From IMG/VR virus record IMGVR_UViG_3300009108_000041, positions 1 to 28,531 of that record: a stretch of DNA of 28,531 nt; one strand, given 5' to 3'. This document shows, piece after piece, positions 1,524-18,400 of this stretch (the first letter of the stretch is position 1; each line of letters opens with the position of its first letter). The translations under genes and the position numbers were made by a program. The stretch is from a virus. The notes beneath the pieces are model-generated. The model saw nothing but the letters and a program-made list of their open reading frames with translations. It ran no database searches and was not told where the DNA came from.

Positions 1524-2444
1524 CTATCCTTCCATGACTTGTGTTATTAATTCCTGTGCGTATTCACTTCGACCTTTAGCATCTTGTCGCCATTGTTTTG
1601 CTATCATGTAGTCAATTCCCATGAATTCAAGCATGGCTTCGGACGTTTCTAAGGCTTTACCCATATTCCATGTGCTTCTTTGGTCGTAAAATCCTTCGTC
1701 GAAGATTCCAAAGATTGAATCTCTGAAAAGCCCCTGTGCGAATAGCAATCCAACTCTTTTTGTGTCTAAAGGCTCTTCGAAGTCTTTCAATGTGAAATTC
1801 ACCGAACATTCGCACCTGTCATCCATTATAAGATTATCCCACCCTGCCGAGCATAGCATTATTCTTGTAGCTACCCCTTTTTTGGTTAGAGCATCTGCTA
1901 AGATAACCGCCATAGCTGTTATTTCGGCGAAGTCATCTTCATCGTTACCGCAAGACATTGTCATATTCAGCCCAAGCGTAATAGCTTTGCGTTCGGTGTC
2001 TCTTTCCACGTTTTGCCAATATTCAGGTACTCCACTCATAATTCTGTCGAAGTCTAATTCATCACCGTCTTCACGGAAACGTCTTCGTCTTTTCATGGAT
2101 ACCCCTGTGTCTGAAAAGATTTCGGGATTAGTGAATTCTAATTCACTTCGATAATCCATCACTCTTTTTAGCACCTTTTCGGCAAGGTCGCCTGTATCTA
2201 TCACCATGTGCGTTTTTTCACGATTTTTGTAATATCCAAATGCCCATGAATCTGAGGAATCACCTTGATGTCCGTATTCACCTTCCCTTATGAATTCCAT
2301 GAATTCTGAATTGTCTCGAAATTCTTTGAGTATTAACCTTCTCTTGCCTTTGGGGTCACTACGTGGTACGTCATAAGATTGATAATCTCTACCCTTGTTT
2401 TCGGGGTCTTTTACGGTTTCGATTTTGTTTGTATCGATTAACAT
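1524..2444 (-). CDS. DUF7192-like phage protein, possible degenerate VWA partner of the AAA+ ATPase
   Basis: This 306-residue protein matches what I remember of the phage DUF7192 family: an EFxxFIREGEYGHQGDSSDSW segment near 47-67, a SGVPEYWQNV block near 137-146, and a hydrophobic strand ITLGLNMTMSCG at 155-166 followed by a helix carrying AVILADALTKKG. The strand-then-helix layout resembles the first strand of a von Willebrand A domain. The metal-site DxSxS is replaced by NMTMS (160-164), so metal binding is doubtful. Its ATG overlaps the stop of the MoxR-like ATPase gene, which is the arrangement seen for MoxR-VWA chaperone pairs (for example CobS-CobT and RavA-ViaA). The likely role is adaptor or substrate recogniser for that ATPase; the substrate is unknown. 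The family call is from memory. Confidence 0.6.
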   Translation of the reverse strand: MLIDTNKIETVKDPENKGRDYQSYDVPRSDPKGKRRLILKEFRDNSEFMEFIREGEYGHQGDSSDSWAFGYYKNREKTHMVIDTGDLAEKVLKRVMDYRSELEFTNPEIFSDTGVSMKRRRRFREDGDELDFDRIMSGVPEYWQNVERDTERKAITLGLNMTMSCGNDEDDFAEITAMAVILADALTKKGVATRIMLCSAGWDNLIMDDRCECSVNFTLKDFEEPLDTKRVGLLFAQGLFRDSIFGIFDEGFYDQRSTWNMGKALETSEAMLEFMGIDYMIAKQWRQDAKGRSEYAQELITQVMEG

Positions 2445-3721
2445 TATTTAGCACCTTTTGATTGGGGATTAATTTCTGATTGAGCCTTTGCTATGATGTC
2501 GGTTAGCATGACTTTATCTTTTTCATTCTTTTGCCATGATACCGTCATGTCATTTAGCACTTGTTTTACGCTGTCACCGTCGATAACAGCCTTGCGCCCC
2601 TCCGCAAACAGACGTGTGGATACCACTCTTCTGAGCCTGTTTTTTGCTACCTCTTTACGTAGCTTTTTGAGGGAATTCCCAAGAGCCACGAGATTCTTTT
2701 CGATAGCTTTTTCGCTACCATCATGGGAGTAGATTTTCGGCTTTTTAGCTCGCTTTTTGTTTCCTGTCAAGATTAACTCTTCCAATCGGTCGTCATAATC
2801 GACGTATATGGTTGAGAGGGCAAATCTGTCAAGCGTAGCTTGGTCTAACTGATTCCGTCCTGTGTATTCCCATGAGCCGTTTCCTGTACCGTAGGTATTA
2901 CAGCAAGCTAAGAAAAAGCACCCTTCGTGACGTTTAAGGGTGGGTTTTTCGGTGTTATTGGGAACCGATAGTATCCCATTCGCAAGGAATGAATTCCATA
3001 CGACGAGCATATTAGGGTCGCTTGCATCAAATTCGTCGGCAAGGAATACTCCGCCATTCTCAGCAATCTCAATGAACGGCGTGCTAATATACCGACCATC
3101 CATTAGCATTCGACCCAAGACATGACCTTCGGACATTCCTGCCGTACATGAGATGTGACCGAACGCAGTATTTAGTGCCTCAGCTACGTTCTGAGCCAAA
3201 GTGGTTTTTCCTGTACCAGCAGGGCCTACAAGCATGACATTCCTGTGACGTAATGCCTTGCGGATTATCCGTTCCAATAGGTGATGGCTTACCTTCCCTT
3301 TGGGAATGGTAATATCATTGAATTGCTGACCTTCGACGTTAACCGATATGGAAACGTCTTCTTCTTCGTCGGTAAGACCTAACTTCTTACGAAGTTCTTC
3401 GAGGGCTTCTTTAATCTCGGCTTTTTCATCTTTTTCAGTAGCCGACGGTTTACTGGATTCGCTGTCGGTTTTAGCATCTGTTTTAGCACCGTCCTGTTCA
3501 GTAGCCGACGGTGTACTGTCAGAATCTGAGGATGGCTTTGGACGGTTATGAATTAACCGTTTTAACTGTTCTTTCCTCATGTGAGCAATCTCAGAAGTAC
3601 CTTCTGAAATAGTTCCGTTTTTGGATAGTTTGTAACCGATTTTCCGTAGTTCGGCGACGGTTTTATCCCTCAAGTCATCGACTGAGTAGTAGTCTGTGGA
3701 TGGGTGTGTTTCTGTTATCAT
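2444..3721 (-). CDS. MoxR/CobS-like AAA+ ATPase
   Basis: This is a 425-residue ATPase. Residues 13-60 look like a Rho-N/SAP-type helical domain (TVAELRKIGYKL, then MRKEQLKRLIHNR). Residues 61-105 are an acidic Ser/Thr/Asp linker that repeats PSATE twice. Residues 135-390 are the AAA+ core. It contains Walker A GPAGTGKTT (166-174), Walker B GVFLADEFD (224-232), a sensor-1 Asn in ACCNTYG (N275), a DRF motif (R299) and an STR motif (369-370) of sensor-2 type. The layout matches MoxR/CobS-like chaperone ATPases common in phages. An AGGAG site lies about 9 bases before the ATG. Its stop overlaps the DUF7192-like gene. It probably forms a hexameric ring that remodels a protein or protein-DNA complex. 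The target is not evident. Confidence 0.85.
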   Translation of the reverse strand: MITETHPSTDYYSVDDLRDKTVAELRKIGYKLSKNGTISEGTSEIAHMRKEQLKRLIHNRPKPSSDSDSTPSATEQDGAKTDAKTDSESSKPSATEKDEKAEIKEALEELRKKLGLTDEEEDVSISVNVEGQQFNDITIPKGKVSHHLLERIIRKALRHRNVMLVGPAGTGKTTLAQNVAEALNTAFGHISCTAGMSEGHVLGRMLMDGRYISTPFIEIAENGGVFLADEFDASDPNMLVVWNSFLANGILSVPNNTEKPTLKRHEGCFFLACCNTYGTGNGSWEYTGRNQLDQATLDRFALSTIYVDYDDRLEELILTGNKKRAKKPKIYSHDGSEKAIEKNLVALGNSLKKLRKEVAKNRLRRVVSTRLFAEGRKAVIDGDSVKQVLNDMTVSWQKNEKDKVMLTDIIAKAQSEINPQSKGAK

Positions 3722-3759
3722 GGTTTTTCTCCTAAGTTCGTTGGTTTAGGTGTAACTTT

Positions 3760-4122
3760 TTAGCAGGAATAGGCTGAATACGTGTCGTCATTCAGCAGGA
3801 ATTCCGCTCTTCCATTCGTGAAGGTAATGGGTTCGGGTTCGAGGAACGTAGGCGTGTCCACGTACCATTTCCCCTTCGATTGATAGACGTGAAAGTCTAA
3901 GCCGTAGGCTTTAGCAACTTCGTTCATTCGTCTCTTCGTCGTAGCTGTCTCATGCCCACCTGTGCGAAGGATAGCAAGATTCTCTTCTCTGTCGATGGTT
4001 ACTATAACCGTCGAGTATAGCGTGACGTTGATTCGTCCGTTCGTGCCTGCGCTTACGTTCGTAGCCTTCTTCCTGCGAAGGGCTGTTTCGAGGTTCGGTT
4101 GTTGTGTGTGTGTGTGTTTCAT
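3760..4122 (-). CDS. Conserved phage hypothetical protein with TATTKRRMN motif (120 aa)
   Basis: This is the first gene of the leftward operon. The core (residues 30-100) has beta strands INVTLYSTVIVTID and LAILRTGG, then ETATTKRRMNEVAKAYGL (about 58-75), then FHVYQSKGKWYVDTP. The TATTKRRMN...WYV pattern recurs in small uncharacterised phage proteins that I recall from other genomes; the function is unknown. The basic TKRR helix may contact nucleic acid. A clear GGAG ribosome-binding site lies 6-10 bases before the ATG, next to a 5-bp hairpin. The N-terminal MKHTHTQQ comes from a GT-repeat tract on the plus strand. It is separated by 38 bases from the ATPase gene. Confidence 0.7.
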   Translation of the reverse strand: MKHTHTQQPNLETALRRKKATNVSAGTNGRINVTLYSTVIVTIDREENLAILRTGGHETATTKRRMNEVAKAYGLDFHVYQSKGKWYVDTPTFLEPEPITFTNGRAEFLLNDDTYSAYSC

Positions 4123-4128
4123 GTCGTT

Positions 4129-4213
4129 CTCCTGACGGCTGACCGTCGGTTTGGGTGTTCAAATTGGACGAGACCGCCTCGACCAACGCATATAACTTAA
4201 CAAATTTGAACAC
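4129..4213 (-). promoter_or_regulatory. Leader of the leftward operon with inverted repeat and hairpin
   Basis: An 11-bp perfect inverted repeat (GTGTTCAAATT at 4155-4165, AATTTGAACAC at 4203-4213) flanks 37 bp, including an AT-rich stretch at 4190-4201 that could be a -10 region on the minus strand. A 5-bp hairpin (GACGG at 4134-4138, CCGTC at 4143-4147, 4-nt loop) directly adjoins the GGAG site at 4129-4133. This fits an operator-controlled leftward promoter, or an RNA structure near the ribosome-binding site. No strong -35 element was found, so the promoter itself is not firmly placed. Confidence 0.4.
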
Positions 4214-4409
4214 GCTAAGGCAACAAATTCCTGTAAGTTACGCAATATCAAGGGTTTACGGAGGCTTAGCATGGTGTTTGGCACTGCCCTAAAATGGCAA
4301 AATACAGGGAAATATAAGGATTTAGCATGCTGTCGGTTACCGTCGAGAAGGTAGAATGAGGGAAAAAATGGTCAACGCAGGCAGGATTATTGCGGACTCA
4401 ACGGTTTTT

Positions 4410-4451
4410 GGGAGGGGCAATCCGAAATCGTGGGGGGTGCGTGGGGAGGGG
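4410..4451 (+). other. G-rich tract, possible G-quadruplex
   Basis: Five runs of three or more G fall within 42 bases: GGG (4410-4412), GGGG (4414-4417), GGGGGG (4432-4437), GGGG (4443-4446) and GGGG (4448-4451). The loops are 1, 14, 5 and 1 bases. The tract is unusual in an AT-leaning region with no gene. Folding is possible but needs one long loop. Confidence 0.35.
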
Positions 4452-4494
4452 AGAGACCTCTATAAAAATTACGAGCAAAAATCAACCAAATTAC

Positions 4495-4536
4495 TGCATA
4501 CAGATTGCTTACAAGCTTGCATACAACTTGCTTACA
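4495..4536. repeat. Four TGCWTACA boxes spaced about one helical turn
   Basis: TGCATACA at 4495 and 4518 alternates with TGCTTACA at 4506 and 4529, giving centre spacings of 11, 12 and 11 bp. Such phasing puts all boxes on one face of the helix, as expected for cooperative binding of a protein. Confidence 0.65.
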
Positions 4537-4569
4537 AATAATATTTTTTAGACTATTTCTCGTCTATCT

Positions 4570-4640
4570 CTTATTAAATAGCTTATTAAATAACTTGTTA
4601 AATAGCTGTTTAATAGGTTGTTTAATTGCTTATTAATCTG
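4570..4640. repeat. Six imperfect 12-bp iterons
   Basis: Tandem units start at 4570, 4582, 4594, 4606, 4617 and 4629. The first three are CTTATTAAATAG, CTTATTAAATAA and CTTGTTAAATAG. The last three are diverged (the fourth is 11 bp) but keep the TTAAT core. The unit length is near a helical turn. Direct, phased and AT-rich repeats suggest binding sites for a replication initiator or repressor. Confidence 0.65.
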
Positions 4641-4645
4641 GTACT

Positions 4646-4697
4646 GGTATAGGTATAGGTATATATATAATAAGTATATAATATACTTAATATTAAG
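4646..4697. repeat. GGTATA triple repeat and AT-rich palindromes
   Basis: Three tandem GGTATA units (4646-4663) run into a nearly pure AT stretch. This contains an 8-bp inverted repeat, TAAGTATA at 4671-4678 and TATACTTA at 4682-4689, overlapping a perfect 12-bp palindrome CTTAATATTAAG at 4686-4697. It is a good candidate for a duplex-unwinding element or operator. Confidence 0.5.
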
Positions 4698-4737
4698 AGC
4701 CTGAAAAAAGTTTAGAAATGTTTAGTGAAACAAAGGC

Positions 4738-4765
4738 TTGTAATAGTCGTTTGGTAATGTATGAT
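4738..4765 (+). promoter_or_regulatory. Candidate sigma70-type promoter for the rightward block
   Basis: TTGTAA (4738-4743) and TATGAT (4760-4765) are separated by 16 bp. The predicted transcript would begin near 4772, only about 13 bases before the GTG of the small terminase gene, giving an almost leaderless message. There is no good Shine-Dalgarno sequence there, which agrees with a near-leaderless start. Confidence 0.45.
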
Positions 4766-4784: not shown

Positions 4785-5591
4785 GTGAAGGTTTATTGTC
4801 ATGGACGTGAATTTGACGAGTATACCGTCTCTGAGGCTATGAAACTAAGCATTGATGCCTTGTTTGACTGGCGGAAAGCAAAAAAAAATGACTGGGTTGT
4901 TACATTTGATGGCAAAGTTATTAAAGTGCTTGCCCGCTTTGAGTTCAATAAGAGCAGGAAAAAGCCAAGCATCATTCTTCGGACGGGATACGGCGATACT
5001 TCACTGTCTTCAAAACACATCTATGCAAAGGAAACCAAGTTTTTTGATGATATCGACAAACCTTATACGTACGGTCTACCGCCGACAAGCAAACAACAGG
5101 CGTTCATCGATAGACTCATCAACAAAAATTCGTTCGATGAGCATGGAAACGCAAATGCCAATGACATAATCAGCGAATACATGGCGGTATTCAGCGATAA
5201 TAATGAAAAACAAGCGCTACGTCGTGGGTTAAGGATTCTCAGAAAGAAGTCAATTAAAGAAATGGTCAACCAATCACTAAAAGAAAAGTTTGAAACACAT
5301 GGTCTGGATGATGACTATGTAGCTGTAAAACTTAAAACGCTGGTGGAGGAAAGTAAAACCCCAGACAGTGTTAGGCTCTCTGCGCTCAATCGTATCGGAG
5401 ATGTTTTAGGGCATACCGTAAAGGAAAAAGAAGAAAAAGCACAAAATATCATTATGATATCAGACGGGGATAAAAAATTATTAGCCCAAGTACGTCAAGA
5501 TTTGAGTGACCAGCAAATTAATCAACTTATGGCTAAAGTAAAGAAGGGCGGTGTGGATGCCGTTGTTGAAAGCGAAAATACCGAAAGCTGA
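4785..5591 (+). CDS. terS: Putative small terminase subunit with N-terminal extension
   Basis: This 268-residue protein opens the rightward packaging block, in the position of a small terminase. Residues 100-215 are helical. They contain TSKQQAFIDRLIN (about 101-113), a basic stretch LRRGLRILRKKSIKEMVN (about 144-161) and KFETHGLDDDYVAVKLKTLVEE followed by SVRLSALNRIGDVLGH. The last two are typical of small-terminase-like proteins, where a helix-turn-helix selects viral DNA and oligomerises. Residues 1-95 form an extra beta-rich domain of unknown role. The C-terminal tail is charged and may bind the large subunit. The GTG start is chosen because it follows the promoter closely; the next in-frame ATG (4836) would drop 17 residues. 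The small-terminase call is by pattern and position. Confidence 0.65.
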   Translation: MKVYCHGREFDEYTVSEAMKLSIDALFDWRKAKKNDWVVTFDGKVIKVLARFEFNKSRKKPSIILRTGYGDTSLSSKHIYAKETKFFDDIDKPYTYGLPPTSKQQAFIDRLINKNSFDEHGNANANDIISEYMAVFSDNNEKQALRRGLRILRKKSIKEMVNQSLKEKFETHGLDDDYVAVKLKTLVEESKTPDSVRLSALNRIGDVLGHTVKEKEEKAQNIIMISDGDKKLLAQVRQDLSDQQINQLMAKVKKGGVDAVVESENTES

Positions 5592-5937: not shown

Positions 5938-7572
5938 ATGACATTCGATTATACCCCCGAAGAGCGTGAGGCATTGCTCCGCCGTATGTATGTTGATATA
6001 TTTTTCTTCGCTAAATTCATACTCGGCGACCATGAACAGCCCATGAACTATCATATTCGCTCCAAATCTCCAGATTTTCACAAAGAGGTAATCAATAAAT
6101 TGCTCAATCTCGGTGTGGGGGAGAAATTGGCGGTGGTCGCTCCTCGTGGTCATGCCAAATCGACCCTTATCAACCTCGTCTATCCCCTGCACCGCATATT
6201 ATTCGACGAAGAAAAGTTTATTTTGCTTATATCGGAATCAGAAACGCAGTCCAAGTATTATTTGGAAGCATTGGGGAATGAAATTGAGCATAATGCCAAG
6301 CTCAGATACTTTTTTGGCGACCGTAAGGGTAAAACGTGGGGTAAAGAAGAAAAAGAATTCATTTCGGGTTTCGACGTTGACGGAAATCCTAACTCATGGG
6401 TAAAAGTGCTTGTACGTGGTACTGGACAGAAGGTTCGTGGTCTAAAATATGGCGCATATCGTCCGACTTTAACGATTATTGACGATGGCGAGGGCGAACG
6501 GAATACTGCTACTCCTGTATTGCGAGACCAATTTCGTGCGTGGCTGAATGGGGCTGTAATTGCGGGTAGTAATGATGCCCGCCTTATTTTTATCGGCACA
6601 GTCGTAGACGAACAAAGTTATTTAAATCGTATCGCTGGGCCAATGGCATTCGACCGTAAAGGGAATCGAAAGCGTAAAGGGTGGCAAACGATGTTCTATC
6701 AAGCTATCTTGCAAGACTCGCCCGATGGGGAATTTGTAGCCAGCGGGAAGGAAATCGTCGGGCCAGATGGATGTCCAAGTGTATTGTGGCCCGACTATCG
6801 TTCCTATCAATGGCTTAATGATGAGCGGGAACGGCTGATGTCCGAGGGTGATGTCGCCTATTTTTATCAAGAATATCAAAATATACCGATGGACGACAGC
6901 TTCCGTGTGTTTAAGAAAGAACATATTCAGTATTGGGACGGGGCGTTTGGGTTCAATAACGACCAACCCGTCATTATTTTAACGGAAGATGGCGAACGGC
7001 GGGAAATTCCTGTGAATATTTTTATAGGCGTTGACCCTGCATCTTCAGAAAATGTAAAAGCCGACTATACGGTAATTATGGTGATAGGCGTGGATAAGGA
7101 AAATAATATATATGTTATCGACTATTTTCGTGGACAGGTGACCCCGATGGACGGTGCAGATAAAATATTCGAAATGGCTGAAGCCTATAAACCAAAAGAA
7201 ATTAAGATTGAAGAGACAGGTCACGTGATGTTGGCGGAATATGTGATAAAAAAATCAAAAGAAATGGGAAGATTTTGGAACATTTCGCCGAAAAAAGCGA
7301 TTAAAAGTAAGTTTTACCGTATTAAACAGCTTCAACCCTATTTTGCGTCGAAAGCTATGTTTATGAGGGAAGAACATTTCGAATTGGAACAAGAATTACT
7401 CAACTTTAAAGAACACGGCTCATTTAAAAAGGATACGCTGGATGCATTACGATGGGCTTTGGACGACATCTATTCACCAAAGGTAACATACAATGATGAA
7501 GGTGAAATTATCCCCTATCAACCTCGACCAAAGGGTATGGACTGGCAAACAGGACAACTTATTTATGCATAA
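5938..7572 (+). CDS. terL: Terminase large subunit (packaging ATPase and nuclease)
   Basis: This 544-residue protein is of normal length for large terminases, the motor that pumps DNA into the prohead and cuts it. The ATPase half contains a Walker A variant APRGHAKST (68-76) and a Walker B strand LTIIDDGEG (178-186, catalytic-type acidic residues D182-E185), followed by a coupling motif LIFIGTVVDE (216-225). The RNase H-like nuclease half contains GVDPASS (D366), IKIEETG (E425/E426) and DALRWALDD (D502), the three expected metal-binding acidic positions. It follows the small terminase and two small genes and precedes the portal. Its start is set by the AAAGG site sitting in a hairpin. Confidence 0.93.
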   Translation: MTFDYTPEEREALLRRMYVDIFFFAKFILGDHEQPMNYHIRSKSPDFHKEVINKLLNLGVGEKLAVVAPRGHAKSTLINLVYPLHRILFDEEKFILLISESETQSKYYLEALGNEIEHNAKLRYFFGDRKGKTWGKEEKEFISGFDVDGNPNSWVKVLVRGTGQKVRGLKYGAYRPTLTIIDDGEGERNTATPVLRDQFRAWLNGAVIAGSNDARLIFIGTVVDEQSYLNRIAGPMAFDRKGNRKRKGWQTMFYQAILQDSPDGEFVASGKEIVGPDGCPSVLWPDYRSYQWLNDERERLMSEGDVAYFYQEYQNIPMDDSFRVFKKEHIQYWDGAFGFNNDQPVIILTEDGERREIPVNIFIGVDPASSENVKADYTVIMVIGVDKENNIYVIDYFRGQVTPMDGADKIFEMAEAYKPKEIKIEETGHVMLAEYVIKKSKEMGRFWNISPKKAIKSKFYRIKQLQPYFASKAMFMREEHFELEQELLNFKEHGSFKKDTLDALRWALDDIYSPKVTYNDEGEIIPYQPRPKGMDWQTGQLIYA

Positions 7573-7629: not shown

Positions 7630-9666
7630 ATGATAAAGATAAAAAAAATAGACCTTTCTGACATTTCTGCGCATGACGTACGAGATGAATATACGCTATT
7701 TCAGAGCAATGCTACGGATTTTCGCAGTCAAATGGCTGAAGATGAGGAATTTTACCTCGGCGTTCAGCTTACCCCCTCTCAAAAAGACTATTTATTAAGC
7801 GTAGGTCAACCCCCAGAGGCAAATAATAAAATTCGACCTGCTGTGGAGCAAGTATTGGCGAATATATCTGGCGCATCCCCAGAATGGGATGTTCATGCCA
7901 TCGGTAAAACGGATAGCGAAGTCGCCTACGTATACAATGCGCTTTTAGACAAAGTGTGGTACGATTCTAACGGGGATAGGCATTTTCGGAATGTATGCAG
8001 AGATTATATCGTAAAAGGTGTGGGTTATCTCTATGTATATCCCGATTGGCAGGCTGAGAATGGTGCAGGCGGTATTCGTATTAAACGTGTTTCGCCCGAA
8101 AGCGTATTTGTAGACCCGAACTCAACCGACCCATTTTTTAGAGATGCGTCGAGCATTATACTTTCTGATTTGCATACGAAAGAAAGTTTGAAATCTCACT
8201 TCCCTGAATATGCTGATATTATTGAAGATGCACGTGAGGATGAATATAAGAATGAGATTGGTGCAGATGGATACAACCGAGATAAGATTATTCGTCGGAA
8301 TGATGTGACCTCAGATGGTCAGCCAAAGGTGCGAAAATTTGTGCGGTGGTGCTATGTGAATGTACCTCACGTGATTTTGACGGATTTATTGACGGGTAAG
8401 TATGAAACATTCGACCGAGAACAATATAAAAAGATGATAAAAGAGCCTCGGTATAAGGCTTATCTTGAAAACGGCCAAATTGAAGAGCAGTTGACTTATA
8501 TACGTCAAGTGCGTGAAGTGTTTGTGATTGGTGATAAGGTTATTTACGATGAGGTGCTACCGATTGACAGGTTCCCGATTGTACCTGCCTGCAATGAGCA
8601 TAATGGGACACCTTATCCCGCTGGTGATGTTCGCCATGCTAAAAGTCCTCAGCGGATGCTAAACCGTACAGAGGCGTTGCTGATTAGCCACGCCACGTCT
8701 ACGGCAAGCTTTAAGTTGATATATGAGGACGGTGCAATCGACCCAGAAGAAATAGAAAAATGGCTTATACCGAATGCGACGATACGTGCGAACCCGAATG
8801 CGTTGGCAAATGGTAAAATTAAGGAATTCGCCCCGCCGTCCATCAGTAGCCAGCTCTATTCTGAAAAACAGCGTTATGAAATCGACATTGAGACGATTTT
8901 TGGTGCATATAAATTTCAACAGGGCGACCCTCGTGGTGCTGTTGGAACGGTGGGGGAAGCTCAAATTATTGACGAGGCATCTGCCCGTAAGCAAAATTGG
9001 AAGATATTGCCTGTATACGATATGTTGAATGAGGTTGGCAAGTGTGTTGCATTATACTCCCCTTATGTTTATGACAAACAGCGAGTATTGCGCATTGTAA
9101 ATCCATTGGGCATAGAAAAAGAATTAACGATTAACGTACCTGTTATTAATGACTACACGAATGCGGTTGAGCGAATTTATGATGTGGCAACGGCTGAAGT
9201 GGATATTCGAGTGGTTGTTGGCAGTACACGTGCGAAAAGCCCAAGTGCGAATTTAGCCAGAGACATCAATTTGATGCAGGCAGGTATTTATGATAAAACC
9301 CAAGTGATAATGAATATGGAGGGCGATGTGGATAAGACTGCATTGATTCAGCGCATGGGCGAAATATCAAATTTAATGTCTGAAAATCAACAGTTAAAAG
9401 AGCAGAATAAAGCATTATCTGGAGATATTCAGACGAGAGAAAGAGAATTGTTCCACGCCAATATGCGTGCGGAAGTCGCAAATGCCACAAAACCTGTGGC
9501 TCAGGCTGTGAGCAACTTGCGAGCCACCGCAAAGGCGGAACAGGACAAACAAAAAGAGATGACCCAAGAGACCGCAAGGGATTTGGAGTTTATCTCGGAC
9601 GAAACGATTAACTCAGAAACCAAAGCCCCCTCTCCTCTAAACGAGGGAATTATGGGTGTGGGGTAA
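7630..9666 (+). CDS. Portal protein, P22-like
   Basis: This 678-residue protein forms the dodecameric ring at the capsid vertex through which DNA enters and leaves. It follows terL as expected. The N-terminal region has a helical segment and then NNKIRPAVEQVLANISG (about 66-82), DVHAIGKTD and RNVCRDYIVKGVGYLYVYPDW (about 119-139). ESVFVDPNSTDPFFRDAS follows; this is the pattern typical of P22-type portals of short-tailed phages. The length is between T7-like and P22 portals. Residues from about 560 to 655 are a charged, Gln/Ala-rich coiled coil (ENQQLKEQNKALSGDI) consistent with the barrel extension. The ATG at 7630 has no Shine-Dalgarno sequence; a conserved quasi-palindrome lies 14-32 bases upstream. 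Confidence 0.85.
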   Translation: MIKIKKIDLSDISAHDVRDEYTLFQSNATDFRSQMAEDEEFYLGVQLTPSQKDYLLSVGQPPEANNKIRPAVEQVLANISGASPEWDVHAIGKTDSEVAYVYNALLDKVWYDSNGDRHFRNVCRDYIVKGVGYLYVYPDWQAENGAGGIRIKRVSPESVFVDPNSTDPFFRDASSIILSDLHTKESLKSHFPEYADIIEDAREDEYKNEIGADGYNRDKIIRRNDVTSDGQPKVRKFVRWCYVNVPHVILTDLLTGKYETFDREQYKKMIKEPRYKAYLENGQIEEQLTYIRQVREVFVIGDKVIYDEVLPIDRFPIVPACNEHNGTPYPAGDVRHAKSPQRMLNRTEALLISHATSTASFKLIYEDGAIDPEEIEKWLIPNATIRANPNALANGKIKEFAPPSISSQLYSEKQRYEIDIETIFGAYKFQQGDPRGAVGTVGEAQIIDEASARKQNWKILPVYDMLNEVGKCVALYSPYVYDKQRVLRIVNPLGIEKELTINVPVINDYTNAVERIYDVATAEVDIRVVVGSTRAKSPSANLARDINLMQAGIYDKTQVIMNMEGDVDKTALIQRMGEISNLMSENQQLKEQNKALSGDIQTRERELFHANMRAEVANATKPVAQAVSNLRATAKAEQDKQKEMTQETARDLEFISDETINSETKAPSPLNEGIMGVG

Positions 9667-12795: not shown

Positions 12796-13422
12796 ATGAG
12801 ATACCAAGAAGCATATGAATTAATAGAGGCGGGTTTACTGAAGGCGAATTTGAGTTTTCCTGTTATGGAATCTTTGAAGGCGACTATCTTTGATGAAAAG
12901 GTGAATGAAGTGGGTTTGCGCTCTGTAAAGAAGCGGAGCAGTGAAAGCTTTACTACCACGAAGACCAACGTGTATACGTTTACGAATGCAGATATCAGCA
13001 ACAAGGTTTATAAGGTACAGTTGGACAAAAGCAACGTGCCTTTTGTGAGCGAAAAGCGGTATATCGAAGACCTTGACGAAAACCAAGTGGATGAAATTGG
13101 TTATTTCATTAAAGTGGAAGGGTCGGACACCAAAATTTATTTTACAAAGGATACGGATGCGGGAAAAACGCTTAAAATATTCTATTATGCTAAGCCGACT
13201 GCTAAGTCTGCTGTAACAAGCAATGTGGATATACCTGCTCAGTTGATACCTGCCTGCGTACATTATTCATTGGCTCATTTTTTAGCATTGGACGGTCAGA
13301 TGCAGATATCATCTGGACATCGTGGATTGGGCCGTCAGATTGAGATGGAATACATTGAAACAGACAATGCCCGTGAAGCAAAACCCGACATATTACCTCT
13401 CCCATTACAGGATTTTATCTAA
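12796..13422 (+). CDS. Head-tail adaptor-like protein (208 aa)
   Basis: The N-terminal 35 residues are helical (EAYELIEAGLLKA). Then a beta barrel-like part follows (VYKVQLDKSNVPFVSEKRY, then GYFIKVEGSDTKIYFT and KTLKIFYYAKP), and a final helical part holds VDIPAQLIPACVHYSLAHFLAL. This arrangement, with a Pro-bounded helix that contacts the portal, is common in head-tail adaptors of short-tailed phages. The next gene's N-terminal domain has the same layout, so the two may be stacked neck proteins. The ATG lacks a Shine-Dalgarno sequence. The stop overlaps the next ATG (TAATG). The assignment is by pattern and order. Confidence 0.6.
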   Translation: MRYQEAYELIEAGLLKANLSFPVMESLKATIFDEKVNEVGLRSVKKRSSESFTTTKTNVYTFTNADISNKVYKVQLDKSNVPFVSEKRYIEDLDENQVDEIGYFIKVEGSDTKIYFTKDTDAGKTLKIFYYAKPTAKSAVTSNVDIPAQLIPACVHYSLAHFLALDGQMQISSGHRGLGRQIEMEYIETDNAREAKPDILPLPLQDFI

Positions 13423-15452
13423 TGGCAAGTTTTAAAGTACAAATCGAAGATATGATAGGGTCGGTAGGGGACGACCAATTTTTAGCAGACAGCATTAATG
13501 CGGTATCGAAAGAAATTATAAACGCTATGCCCGAAGACAAGCTTTGGTCTGTGAGTGAAGAGTCAAACGAATCCAGTTCGAATGGATTGGCGACAGAAGA
13601 TAGTAAGGTATTGGGTGTCTTTAGAGAGAATGGGACGAATGACGAGTTTGTGTCGTGCAAAGAAGTTCCCATGTATTATGAGCGAAAGATTCAGGATAGC
13701 AGTTCTTTGTTTTACCCATCATCGGTTGAACCTGTTTTTTTATTAAAAGGCGGAAAGGTGTATGTATATCCCGCCCCATCGGCGAGCAATGAAGCTTTTA
13801 AAGTGGTGAGCGCTAAATACCCTGAACTGACATCAATCACGGTGGCGACTGCCAGTAGTATTAGTACATTCCCTGATGAGTTAGAGCATTTGATTGTTTT
13901 AGGGGCATCTTCACGTGGATTACAGTATTTGATGGCACGGGTGAAGGATAATTTATCGGGTTTAGCACCGAGTTTCGTTGCTCCGAGTTTCCCCAGCATT
14001 AGCACGCTAAGCCTTAGCGTTGCACCAAATGCGCCTTCGCTAAGTAATCAGAGTGTTTCGTCGCTCGGAACAGCACCTGCTTATACAAAGCCGAGTTTTG
14101 TTGCACCAGTGTTTCCGACTATCAGCACATTAAGTCTTAGCACAGCACCAATTTCACCATCGCTTAGCAGTCAAAGTGTTGCAAGTTTGGGTACAGCGCC
14201 GAGCTATACAAAGCCAAGCTTTGTTGTGCCATCGTTTCCCAGTTTACAAACGCTTAGCCCGTCTAACGCTCCAAGCGCACCTGCGTTAAAGCCGTTGAGT
14301 TATAGCGATGCAAGTAAAACCGATTTTGGAAATAGTGTGGCTGTGAGTGCGCTGGGGACAGCGCCGAGCTATGTTTCTCCTGTTTCAAGTATAGATACCA
14401 GCCAATTTGAGACCTTTTTAGAAACGAATGAAGACCCTGAATTGGCAGGGGTGCAAATTGAGCGTATGCGTGTGGAGCTTGGAAAGTTTCAGGCGGATAT
14501 ATCTGACAGGTTGAATGATTTTAATGAGGGTACTGAGGAATATCGTGCAGATATCCAAAAGAAGATTAAGCAGGCAGATATTGATATATCTGAAGCGCAG
14601 GTGAATGCGCAAAATGGCACAAATGTTGATATTCAAAATAAGGCTAAGCAGTTGGAAGCGGATTTATCTGATAACAAACTTACTTTGGAAAAATATGCAT
14701 CTGAATTGGGTAGCTATCAGACGACAGTGAATAGTGAAGTACAAACATTTGTGAATAATGAGATTCAGCACAAGTTTCAAAAGTGGGTAACTGAGTATGC
14801 CAATGTTTTACAGGGATACCAGTTGGACATTCAAAACGAACTAAATTCATTTAATAAAGATAATGTGGTTTACCAAGCTGAACTCCAGAAGAAAATTAAA
14901 GATGCAGAATTGGGTGACGGAGACGAGAACCGTTTGCTCCAAAAATATGCCAATGAGATTCAGAGTTTCGGAGCAACCATTAATTCTGAAATAGAGACAT
15001 GGGTAAAGAATGAAATTGAGAATAAGTTTCAAAAATGGGTGACAGATTACGGTAATAAGCTTCAAGAGTTTCAGTTGGATATTCAGAATGAATTAAATGA
15101 ATTCAATAAAGAAAATGTAGCATATCAGGCGGATTTGCAGAAGAAAATTAAAGATGCAGATTTGGGTGATTCTGGTGAGAATCAAGCCTTACAGAAGTAT
15201 GCCAATCAGATTCAAAGTTTTGGGGCAACCATCAACGCTGAAGTAGAAACATGGTCTAAAAACGAGATTGAGAATAAGTTTAATAAATGGCTAAATGAAT
15301 ACGCAAATCTGGTTCAGGTCTACAATGTGGATGTGGCGAAGTACAATGCAAATCTTCAGCGATATGGTGCTGAATATAATTGGTATCAGGAACAGTATCA
15401 GCGGTTGGACGGAAAGTATAATGATATGTTAAAAGCGTATATATCTAACTGA
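13422..15452 (+). CDS. Adaptor domain fused to Ser/Pro repeats and coiled-coil repeats (neck or whisker protein)
   Basis: This 676-residue protein has three parts. Residues 1-182 resemble a head-tail adaptor: MIGSVGDDQFLADSINAV, then VFLLKGGKVYVYPAPS, then STFPDELEHLIVLGASSRGL. Residues 183-320 consist of three Pro/Ser/Thr-rich repeats of about 41 residues built on PSFVAPSFPSISTLSLS. Residues 345-676 are a long coiled coil with three 84-residue repeats containing NEIENKFQKWV and LDIQNELNEFNKEN. The likely role is a neck protein whose rod-like C-terminus projects as a collar or whisker, or spans the tail. The stop and start codons overlap those of the neighbouring genes. I know of no named family combining these parts. 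Confidence 0.65.
   Translation: MASFKVQIEDMIGSVGDDQFLADSINAVSKEIINAMPEDKLWSVSEESNESSSNGLATEDSKVLGVFRENGTNDEFVSCKEVPMYYERKIQDSSSLFYPSSVEPVFLLKGGKVYVYPAPSASNEAFKVVSAKYPELTSITVATASSISTFPDELEHLIVLGASSRGLQYLMARVKDNLSGLAPSFVAPSFPSISTLSLSVAPNAPSLSNQSVSSLGTAPAYTKPSFVAPVFPTISTLSLSTAPISPSLSSQSVASLGTAPSYTKPSFVVPSFPSLQTLSPSNAPSAPALKPLSYSDASKTDFGNSVAVSALGTAPSYVSPVSSIDTSQFETFLETNEDPELAGVQIERMRVELGKFQADISDRLNDFNEGTEEYRADIQKKIKQADIDISEAQVNAQNGTNVDIQNKAKQLEADLSDNKLTLEKYASELGSYQTTVNSEVQTFVNNEIQHKFQKWVTEYANVLQGYQLDIQNELNSFNKDNVVYQAELQKKIKDAELGDGDENRLLQKYANEIQSFGATINSEIETWVKNEIENKFQKWVTDYGNKLQEFQLDIQNELNEFNKENVAYQADLQKKIKDADLGDSGENQALQKYANQIQSFGATINAEVETWSKNEIENKFNKWLNEYANLVQVYNVDVAKYNANLQRYGAEYNWYQEQYQRLDGKYNDMLKAYISN
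13968..14381 (+). repeat. Three Ser/Pro-rich coding repeats
   Basis: The first two units are 123 bp each (13968-14090 and 14091-14213), encoding 41 residues from PSFVAP to AxYTK. The third, starting at 14214, is about 168 bp. It keeps the PSFVVPSFPS start and the ALGTAPSYV end but has a different middle. The DNA is less similar than the protein, so the duplication is old or selection keeps the protein pattern. Confidence 0.8.
14691..15446 (+). repeat. Three 252-bp coiled-coil coding repeats
   Basis: Units at 14691-14942, 14943-15194 and 15195-15446 each begin KYAxxxxS and encode 84 residues. Units 1 and 2 align end to end (LDIQNELNxFNKxNVxYQA then LQKKIKDAxLGD). Unit 3 aligns for its first half and then diverges. 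Upstream residues 345-423 contain a degraded partial unit (QKKIKQAD). The array has an exact 84-residue register. Confidence 0.85.
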
Positions 15453-18400
15453 TGCCAAAACGCACCCACATTATTAATCGATTTGAAGGCGGTATCAACG
15501 AAGAGTCGAACTCCAGAGACCTTGAGGCTAATGAGGTTGTAAGTGCTAAGAATGTGGCTGTTGACCATATTGGGAAGGTTAAGACGACACCTTATTCTCG
15601 TAGCGTTGAGACAACTTATACGGATTCTGACCAAGTGAGCGGTGATGGTATCTTCTTATTCTCTACGGATTATTTGCGTGGGGAATCGGGTACGTCGAGC
15701 GGAAGTGAAGCGGATACGGGAGATGATTATATTGCGATTGCGGATTCGGCAAGCGGTGGCGGTGTTCGAATACGAAGCAGGATAAATGGACAAGATAGTG
15801 GTGGCGCTATCCCGATTAAGTTTGCGACTTTGAGCAGTGACAATCGACCTGTGTATTATGTTGCAGATGGTGGGTTGCGTATATGTGACAGTAATTTTGG
15901 GGATACGAACAACCTGAGCCGATGGTATGGTTATGTAAAGCGTACCTTATTCAGCAATATACCTGCTCATAAATATGCGATTGCAGGATGGAAGCATGAA
16001 AAAACGGATATCGATATACCTGCCGTAGCCAGTTCGCTTGTGTCTGGGACTACCTTGTCTACCAGTTCTGTTAGTAGTAATAAAACGGCTGATGTGTCTA
16101 TTGACGGTACAAATAATGATACGGGTTACACATCGAACACAAATGCAGTTCACGCCAATGATACGGATTCTACATTCAGCAAGGCGAATTTGGGATTTAC
16201 AGGTAGTCAGGATTATGTGAAGACTGTACGTGTGCGGGTAAAGGTTGATGGTTATTCAACAACAGCATCATGGATGATTGAGGGTGTTATTCGTGTTGGG
16301 ATTCAAAACAGTACAAGTTTTGCGAGTACGGGATATCAGTATGCCACAGCGGATTTATCACAAGAGGTAGACCCTCAAGACAATTTTCCTAACTTTACCG
16401 AGACAGAATATGAATATACGTTTTCCTTTCCTGATAGCGGTGTGGATATTAGCAGTGATAACCTGCGTGTAAGTTTACGTCAGTTGTCTAACGATTCAAG
16501 TGGCACATATAAGATTGATAATATCTTTATTGAAGGTGGAAATGGTATTGGGGATACTGCCTATAATAGTAGCCCGAATGCTGTGAATGTGGTTATGGGT
16601 GATTCAGCTACCACCAGCGATGATTGGTCTGATGATTGGAATGTTGGTGTATCTTTTGTGTATGACGGGAATCAAGAAAGTTTGGTTCGACCATTAACCA
16701 TATCTGGCGGTAAGGAATATATTACTTTGACAAAATCGCCCTATACGAATGTGGGTTTTAATTTTACGAGCAGTTGGAATCAGCGGATTACGGGTGTTAA
16801 TGTATATGTAAAGAAGACAAGTGAGACCGATTGGCGCTTGCACGCTATATTGGACATGGTGGGCGGAACGATTCAGCGATACGGCGACCCACAGAAATTT
16901 GAATGTTCTTACTCAACGGCGAATACAGGGTATTTGTTCAATTTAAAAGGTGAAGTGAGTAAGGATATACCCTATATCACCTATGAGGCTTATGCGGGGT
17001 ATGGTCAGGATTTAAATACATTAACGGCACGGTACAAAACGGCTGTGGTTGCGAATCGTCGTGCTTATGTAGCCAATGTGATGGTTGAAGATGAAAATGG
17101 GAACATGAAAAAATATGCGGATAGAATTATTAAAAGTCCGCCCAATAAATTTGATGTATTGCCACTCGAAAATTCATTGGAAGTAACAGTAAATGACGGT
17201 GAAAGCATAACGGCATTGGTAGAGTATGGCGACCGATTATTACAGTTTAAAGAGCGAACGCTTTATATTATTAATATATCTGGGCAGGTAGAGTTTAACG
17301 AAGGTGTATATCATTATCGTGGTGTAAAGACGAAGGCACAGGTGTGCAAAACGGATGTGGGTGTGGCTTGGATAAACGAGAACGGCTGTTTCTTTTTTGA
17401 CGGACGACAGGTTCGTGATTTGATGGAAAAGCGAGGGAAGCGGGCGATTAAAAAGAGTACGTGGACAAGTTTTATATCGGATAAAAGCATGATTGTTTAT
17501 CAGCCAGATATTCAGCAGTTGGCTGTGGTAAAGAGTTATGACAATACAGCTAACAGCGGTGATGCGTATATTTATGATATGGTGACGGGCAGTTGGGTAT
17601 ATCAGGCTGATTTTGTGGATAGCGATAAGAAGAAAACGAACCTTATTAACGATTGGAATGGAAAAATAACATACTGTATTCAAGATGGCAATAATACCGT
17701 GATTAAACAGGTGGTGCAAAGTGAGACATCGCAAACTGGGTTTGAATTGATAACCCCTGATATGGATTTCGGCAACCCTGCCAGCTCTAAGAATATATAT
17801 AATATTCAGGTGACATATACAGGTGGTACGGGTCAAGACGCAAGGCTTTATTATAGAGTAGATAGTGGAAGCTGGGTTAGCGAATTTGGAGACGAACTAA
17901 TTACTAATGGTACTTTTGATACCGATAAAACTGGTTGGACGGAAAACAATAGGGTTGATGCAACTATTAACAATCAAAGATTAAGAGTCGCTTCAAATGC
18001 CCAGACAGGGGGAACGGCTGGAAATGCTATTGTGTATCAATCGTTTACTACTGTTGTAGGTGAGACATATAGGGTAACTGGCAACTTTTATGCTGGTACT
18101 GATTCGGGTGCGAAAATTTCTGTTGGGAAAACGGATGCATTATCAACTGGAGTATATCAAGGCGGAACTTCAACAATGACCACAAATACTTCGGTAGATT
18201 TTACCTTTATAGCAGTTGATACCACTCAAGTAGTATTTCTATATCAAGTTGAAACTGATGATGATGAAGGTGATTACCATGAGTGGGACAATATTTCTAT
18301 AAATCTTGTTGCCCAATTAAATAGTACATCTGCATCACAAACAATAACTGAATTCTCACCACAAAATTTTGTTGAGAATGCAAAGAGTTTTCAGCTCAAA

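Follow-up and report, generated by a model that had tools for sequence, protein, structure and literature searches.

What does a dense set of short repeats do at the point where the gene blocks of an uncultured phage diverge? The window analyzed here is an entire virus record, a 28.5-kb fragment (28,531 nt) in which a 660-bp intergenic zone separates a leftward gene block, beginning with the gene at 3760-4122, from a rightward block encoding small terminase, large terminase, and portal. Because it is flanked by 3760-4122 on the minus strand and terS (4785-5591) on the plus strand, the site is the divergence point, as a preliminary description of this DNA had recognized in proposing a phage origin here. 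Replication origins of uncultured phages are seldom located, and this one may be readable from sequence, since intergenic and initiator-gene arrays match when they come from the same genome and vary from one type to another. On the evidence below, 4495-4719 is probably an iteron-type replication origin, a reading that we hold with some reservation. The features of the zone and its flanks are as follows.

3760-4122, minus strand: first gene of the leftward block, phrog_554 / Kyano_Gp96-like, function unassigned
4398-4476, plus strand: conserved module, with TCAACG at 4398, CCGAAAT at 4422, a G-run at 4432, a GACCTC box at 4455-4460, and TATAAAAATT
4495-4537, plus strand: array 1, four 11/12-bp TGCWTACA boxes
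4570-4640, plus strand: array 2, six ~12-bp AT-rich units (CTTATTAAATAG)
4640-4663, plus strand: array 3, GGTACT followed by three GGTATA hexamers
4660-4719, no strand assigned: AT-rich stretch with overlapping palindromes, a candidate DNA-unwinding element
4738-4765, plus strand: possible sigma-70-like terS promoter (TTGTAA-16-TATGAT), not above chance for the region
4785-5591, plus strand: small terminase gene terS, starting with GTG; its product has an additional beta-rich domain at the N terminus and, at residues ~100-168, a DNA-binding domain of SF6/SPP1 type
5938-7572, plus strand: large terminase gene terL (phrog_38, E 1.8e-79; Terminase_6C)
7630-9666, rightward block: portal gene

Repeat arrays at the divergence point

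The TGCWTACA boxes of array 1 start at 4495, 4506, 4518, and 4529 (steps of 11, 12, and 11 bp), and the motif has only one further copy on the plus strand of the window. Array 2 units start at 4570, 4582, 4594, 4606, 4617, and 4629 (steps of 12, 12, 12, 11, and 12 bp); the hexamers follow, and then the palindromes, which include a 13-nt inverted repeat spanning 4667-4693. The preliminary description had listed four boxes 11-12 bp apart, six 12-bp iterons, GGTATA three times over, and overlapping AT palindromes, all of which are present, the iterons as six units of about 12 bp; the conserved element at 4398-4476 was absent from it. Its suggestion of helical phasing holds in part: the spacing is near 10.5 bp, but the 12-bp array drifts out of phase because 11-12 bp only approximates the helical repeat.

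Tandem Repeats Finder scores the window arrays at 51 and 71, and this repetition exceeds chance: when the 344-bp region was shuffled 500 times with dinucleotides preserved, no shuffle reached 51. The 60 bp beginning at 4660 have the lowest GC content of the whole contig (GC 0.15). A search for the window's array pattern elsewhere in viral contigs gave no match, and the region has no match in Rfam.

Arrays in related phages

We compared 62 viral loci carrying a terL relative, mostly at 62-100% identity, and examined eight relatives as whole contigs; G003 is an apparently closed 38.5-kb genome with a 99-bp end repeat. These relatives are non-independent lineages, G003 being close to G004 and G005 to L052. 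Far from being absent in a syntenic close relative, the iterons persist in G001, the window's closest relative at about 77% DNA identity, which retains every tier (TTGCTTACAG units at array 1, TTATTTAATAAG units at array 2, and CTGGTA hexamers) in the same number, spacing, and order. G002 has TTACGGTAAGGC, GTAAAGGATAAG, and AAGGTA hexamers in the same place. The order of the window also recurs in L139 as 11-bp GCTATAGC units, GATATA hexamers, and AT palindromes, and L117 has an AGAAGT hexamer tier at the matching place. Loci of the majority clade carry ATCGCATAGCA- or TAGGGTAGCTAT-like units, some with just two or three recognizable copies.

Relatives sharing this terminase locus have arrays of 11-12-bp units in the corresponding zone, the unit sequences varying by clade. 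In the comparison of iteron spacing that the preliminary description had suggested, most relatives besides G001 have 11-12-bp repeats here, but the repeats are weak in some, and none were detected to the right of the conserved module in L038, L040, L041, L044, and L049. In G006 and G007 the arrays are inverted and lie ~600 bp to the left of the module. The zone includes some of the genome's most AT-rich 60 bp (lowest 0-1.5%) in the window, G001, G002, G003, G004, G005, and G008; the sequence to the right of the module in G007 is not AT-rich.

The wholly different unit sequences of different clades are what would be expected if the arrays were functionless AT-rich slippage repeats in free drift. 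We regard this as very improbable: the window and G001, about 77% identical, agree in tier number, spacing, and order, and drift cannot produce the match to the relatives' initiator genes described below. An alignment of window array 1 with the arrays of relatives encoding an O-like initiator was not above shuffles, and homology between them was rejected. Contigs L189 and L191, which contain the G002 unit, were also set aside, their repeats lying within ORFs and no relatives of the window's genes being present.

A cumulative GC-skew inflection had been put forward as a further mark of an origin. The skew does turn near the site in complete relatives, but it merely tracks gene strand, and we rejected its minimum as an origin marker.

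Several other repeats were seen in these genomes (coordinates with terS forward). A further 12-bp CCAAAACCATAG array lies ~730 bp left of the module in G003 (15527-15569) and G004 (16258-16299), at the cumulative GC-skew minimum. G006 (2338-4362) and G007 (262-1770) contain long arrays of 9-bp GGTCCAACT-like units, possibly collagen-like coding repeats. In the hexamer tier right of the module in L117 and L114, AGAAGTAGAAGTA / CTTCTACTTC repeats read as TAG/AAG triplets and, beside an AT-rich stretch, are reminiscent of DnaA-trio unwinding elements.

An array copy within the initiator gene

For each complete relative, the array was aligned to every 300-bp bin of its own genome. The initiator gene, about 10 kb away, was the best match in G003, G004, G005, and G006, scoring 22.5, 22.5, 26.5, and 15.5, where the top bins in the rest of the genome scored 12.5-15; in G005, 44 nt of the array align with the initiator gene at about 82%. 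The gene products of these O-like relatives match phage replication initiators.

Array and initiator gene from one genome were then compared against 300 dinucleotide shuffles, with further genomes added by a search with the initiator alignment. The unselected set comprised nine relatives with an O-like replication initiator, whose gene lies 8-10 kb from the array. No shuffle matched the observed score in G003, G004, G005, L052/L107, L043/L108, or L087/L109, and the weaker cases were G006 (1/300), G007 (3/300), and G008 (20/300); a slightly shorter L043 array gave 3/300. A scan for second copies flagged seven more distant relatives, and these, selected on that ground, gave 0/300 in six cases and 1/300 in L139. 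The match in L117 and L132 spans both the 11-bp tier and an AGAAGTA tier, and in L139 and L140 other bins match the array equally or nearly as well as the initiator gene.

When arrays and initiator genes are compared across genomes, the matrix falls into blocks by type (G003/L043; G005/L052/L087; L132/L117/L122/L140/L139), and therefore the array and its copy in the initiator gene change together, although shared ancestry can account for part of the pattern. Because the arrays recur within the initiator gene and their types change together, the arrays of the O-like relatives are most simply read as iterons for the initiator, whose own gene carries them a second time. With a second array in that gene, the family probably has more than one origin, and the site at the divergence point is probably not the only one.

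The window belongs to a subclade with initiators of other types (G001 14-802; G002 1937-2863). The arrays of G001 and G002 have no match in their own initiator genes, with 209/300 and 204/300 shuffles reaching the observed score, and an apparent copy in the AT-rich linker of the G001 gene was discarded as a low-complexity match. The window's 28.5-kb contig contains no initiator gene, its nearest relative, G001, encoding one at 14-802. Since the initiator genes of the subclade lack an array copy and that of the window lies off the contig, the origin assignment for the window is drawn from synteny and anatomy. The origin proposed in the preliminary description is accordingly backed for the family by the copy within the O-like initiator gene; for the window the backing is limited to position and anatomy.

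The same comparison bears on whether the arrays could instead be an operator or activator array for divergent early (left) and late (right) promoters. The site does sit between divergent blocks, AAACCTTAGGTTT palindromes lie beside the arrays in majority-clade relatives, a promoter-like pair is found at 4738-4765, and in the window, G006, and G007 alike the arrays point toward the start of the following gene. Against this, consensus promoters in the region are no commoner than in shuffles (8 vs 5.1 +/- 2.1), no regulator was identified, and initiator iterons, unlike a late-gene operator, would be expected to recur in the initiator gene. We therefore judge regulation of this kind to be a rather improbable role. 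In majority-clade loci, for example L036, an ORF of ~66 aa (MAYEQKDMTGSIF...) lies between the array and terS, preceded in many of them by the AAACCTTAGGTTT palindromes.

Returning to the replication origin, the initiator, encoded off the contig, would bind the tandem 11-12-bp boxes of arrays 1 and 2 and open the adjacent AT-rich stretch, after which helicase could be loaded. O-like members would have two initiator-binding sites 8-10 kb apart, like oriL and oriR of SPP1. We infer the initiator binding, the unwinding, and the carry-over of the origin role to the window's subclade.

A conserved module and the neighboring terminase

To the left of the arrays is the module at 4398-4476, whose elements keep their order across loci: TCAACG, a CCGAAAT-like block, a G-run, a C-rich box, and an A/T tract. 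The module alignment took in 27 loci; among 40 loci scored, some of them redundant, 38 place TCAACG 56-58 bp from the box. G002-G007 each have one copy per genome, at the divergence point. It is also found in L102, a MAG contig from another collection, and in the distant relatives L132, L117, L122, L153, L140, L114, and L139, and is retained in G001 and G002 despite their differing initiators. In G008 the module stays at the divergence point, with terS ~2.4 kb further on. We infer that this module, an element distinct from the arrays, is a candidate cos/pac packaging signal.

The next gene beyond the zone encodes a small terminase. Pfam Terminase_2 is found in 10 of 21 members, and the named viral fold matches are mostly TerS. 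Among the PDB chains compared, the SF6/SPP1-family TerS DNA-binding domain was the best match to residues 100-168 of the predicted model (SF6 G1P 4zc3, Z 7.0, rmsd 1.8 over 57/57 residues; 2cmp, Z 6.8). A PDB sequence search with TerS gave no match, a Foldseek search against the PDB gave nothing significant, and no cultured phages with a related TerS were found. Residues 1-95 form a beta-rich N-terminal domain (~95 aa) ahead of the DNA-binding helices; the structure comparison mainly covered 100-168.

A TerS-binding packaging array was at first the leading idea. The arrays would on this account belong to a packaging-initiation site (pac or cosB-like), with a TerS ring wrapping them and TerL cutting in the G-rich/C-box module. 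They lie immediately upstream of terS, whose predicted DNA-binding domain resembles SF6 G1P (4zc3, Z 7.0), and the module follows the terminase, not the initiator type. The terS promoters of SPP1 are spanned by three direct-repeat sets belonging to pac, and at that place SF6, which lacks the SPP1 boxA, has different repeats (PMC4737164). The order of G-rich site, A/T tract, repeats, and terS also parallels lambda cosN-I2-cosB-Nu1 (PMC4856287), and the 11-mer ATGAAAATTTT is common to lambda 31-41 and the L024 and L026 modules. The idea was demoted because the arrays match the initiator gene, recurring in it and co-varying with it in the O-like relatives. In addition, the module and array of G008 lie ~2.4 kb from terS, and the arrays of G006 and G007 are on the module's other side. 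Dyad symmetry expected of a two-fold cut site was not above shuffles overall (median p 0.78), being strong only in L049 and L012, and contig ends form no convincing cluster at the module: too few fall there, L030 starting 31 nt before the box and L014 about 22 nt after it. We now think it unlikely that the arrays serve packaging in this way.

Comparison with known systems

The closest parallel to an origin of this kind is in SPP1, whose oriL, within gene 38, and oriR, at another site, both combine an AT-rich unwinding element with direct repeats to which gp38 binds; as in the O-like relatives, one repeat copy is inside the initiator gene and another outside, in SPP1 ~13 kb away (PMC6316719). 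The present locus differs in that the outside copy is at the divergence point beside terS and a conserved module of fixed spacing, the repeat units, 11-12 bp long and arranged in two or three tiers, change type between clades, and the window's subclade has no inside copy in the initiator genes of G001 and G002.

In lambda, the ori consists of O-protein iterons within gene O. The O-like relatives resemble it in carrying iterons in the linker of the initiator gene, and O-like family matches were found; the window's site is, by contrast, intergenic, and to our knowledge lambda has no second array outside O. Compared with SPP1/SF6 pac and lambda cos, the likeness lies in the repeat boxes close to terS, in a G-rich element set apart from them, and in a TerS DNA-binding domain of SF6-like type; the difference is that the arrays here match the initiator gene in O-like relatives. 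A closer precedent was sought in the literature and none was found. The locus would resemble SPP1 in having an iteron array outside the initiator gene, here placed at the divergence point on the terminase side, beside a conserved candidate packaging module.

A combined origin-plus-packaging locus is conceivable, though we advance it tentatively. If one of two co-varying iteron copies lies in the initiator gene and the other next to the packaging signal and terS, the latter site could couple replication initiation to packaging; the window's subclade may have replaced its initiator and re-formed the array at the same position from new units. The many natural array pairs are available for testing how iteron specificity evolves. 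The module, a candidate packaging signal across this entire family of uncultured phages, would allow assemblies to be oriented and their ends predicted.

Further observations

In the leftward block, an AAA_5 ATPase gene (phrog_249; 2444-3721, minus strand) adjoins one for a DUF7192 protein (1524-2444, minus strand), and every complete relative has the ATPase on the left side of the divergence point. At 14820-15290, within ORF 13422-15452, is a tandem duplication of 252 bp (77% matches). One Candidatus Marinimicrobia MAG (UBA7303) includes two different relatives, L102 and L103, which weakly hints at the host.
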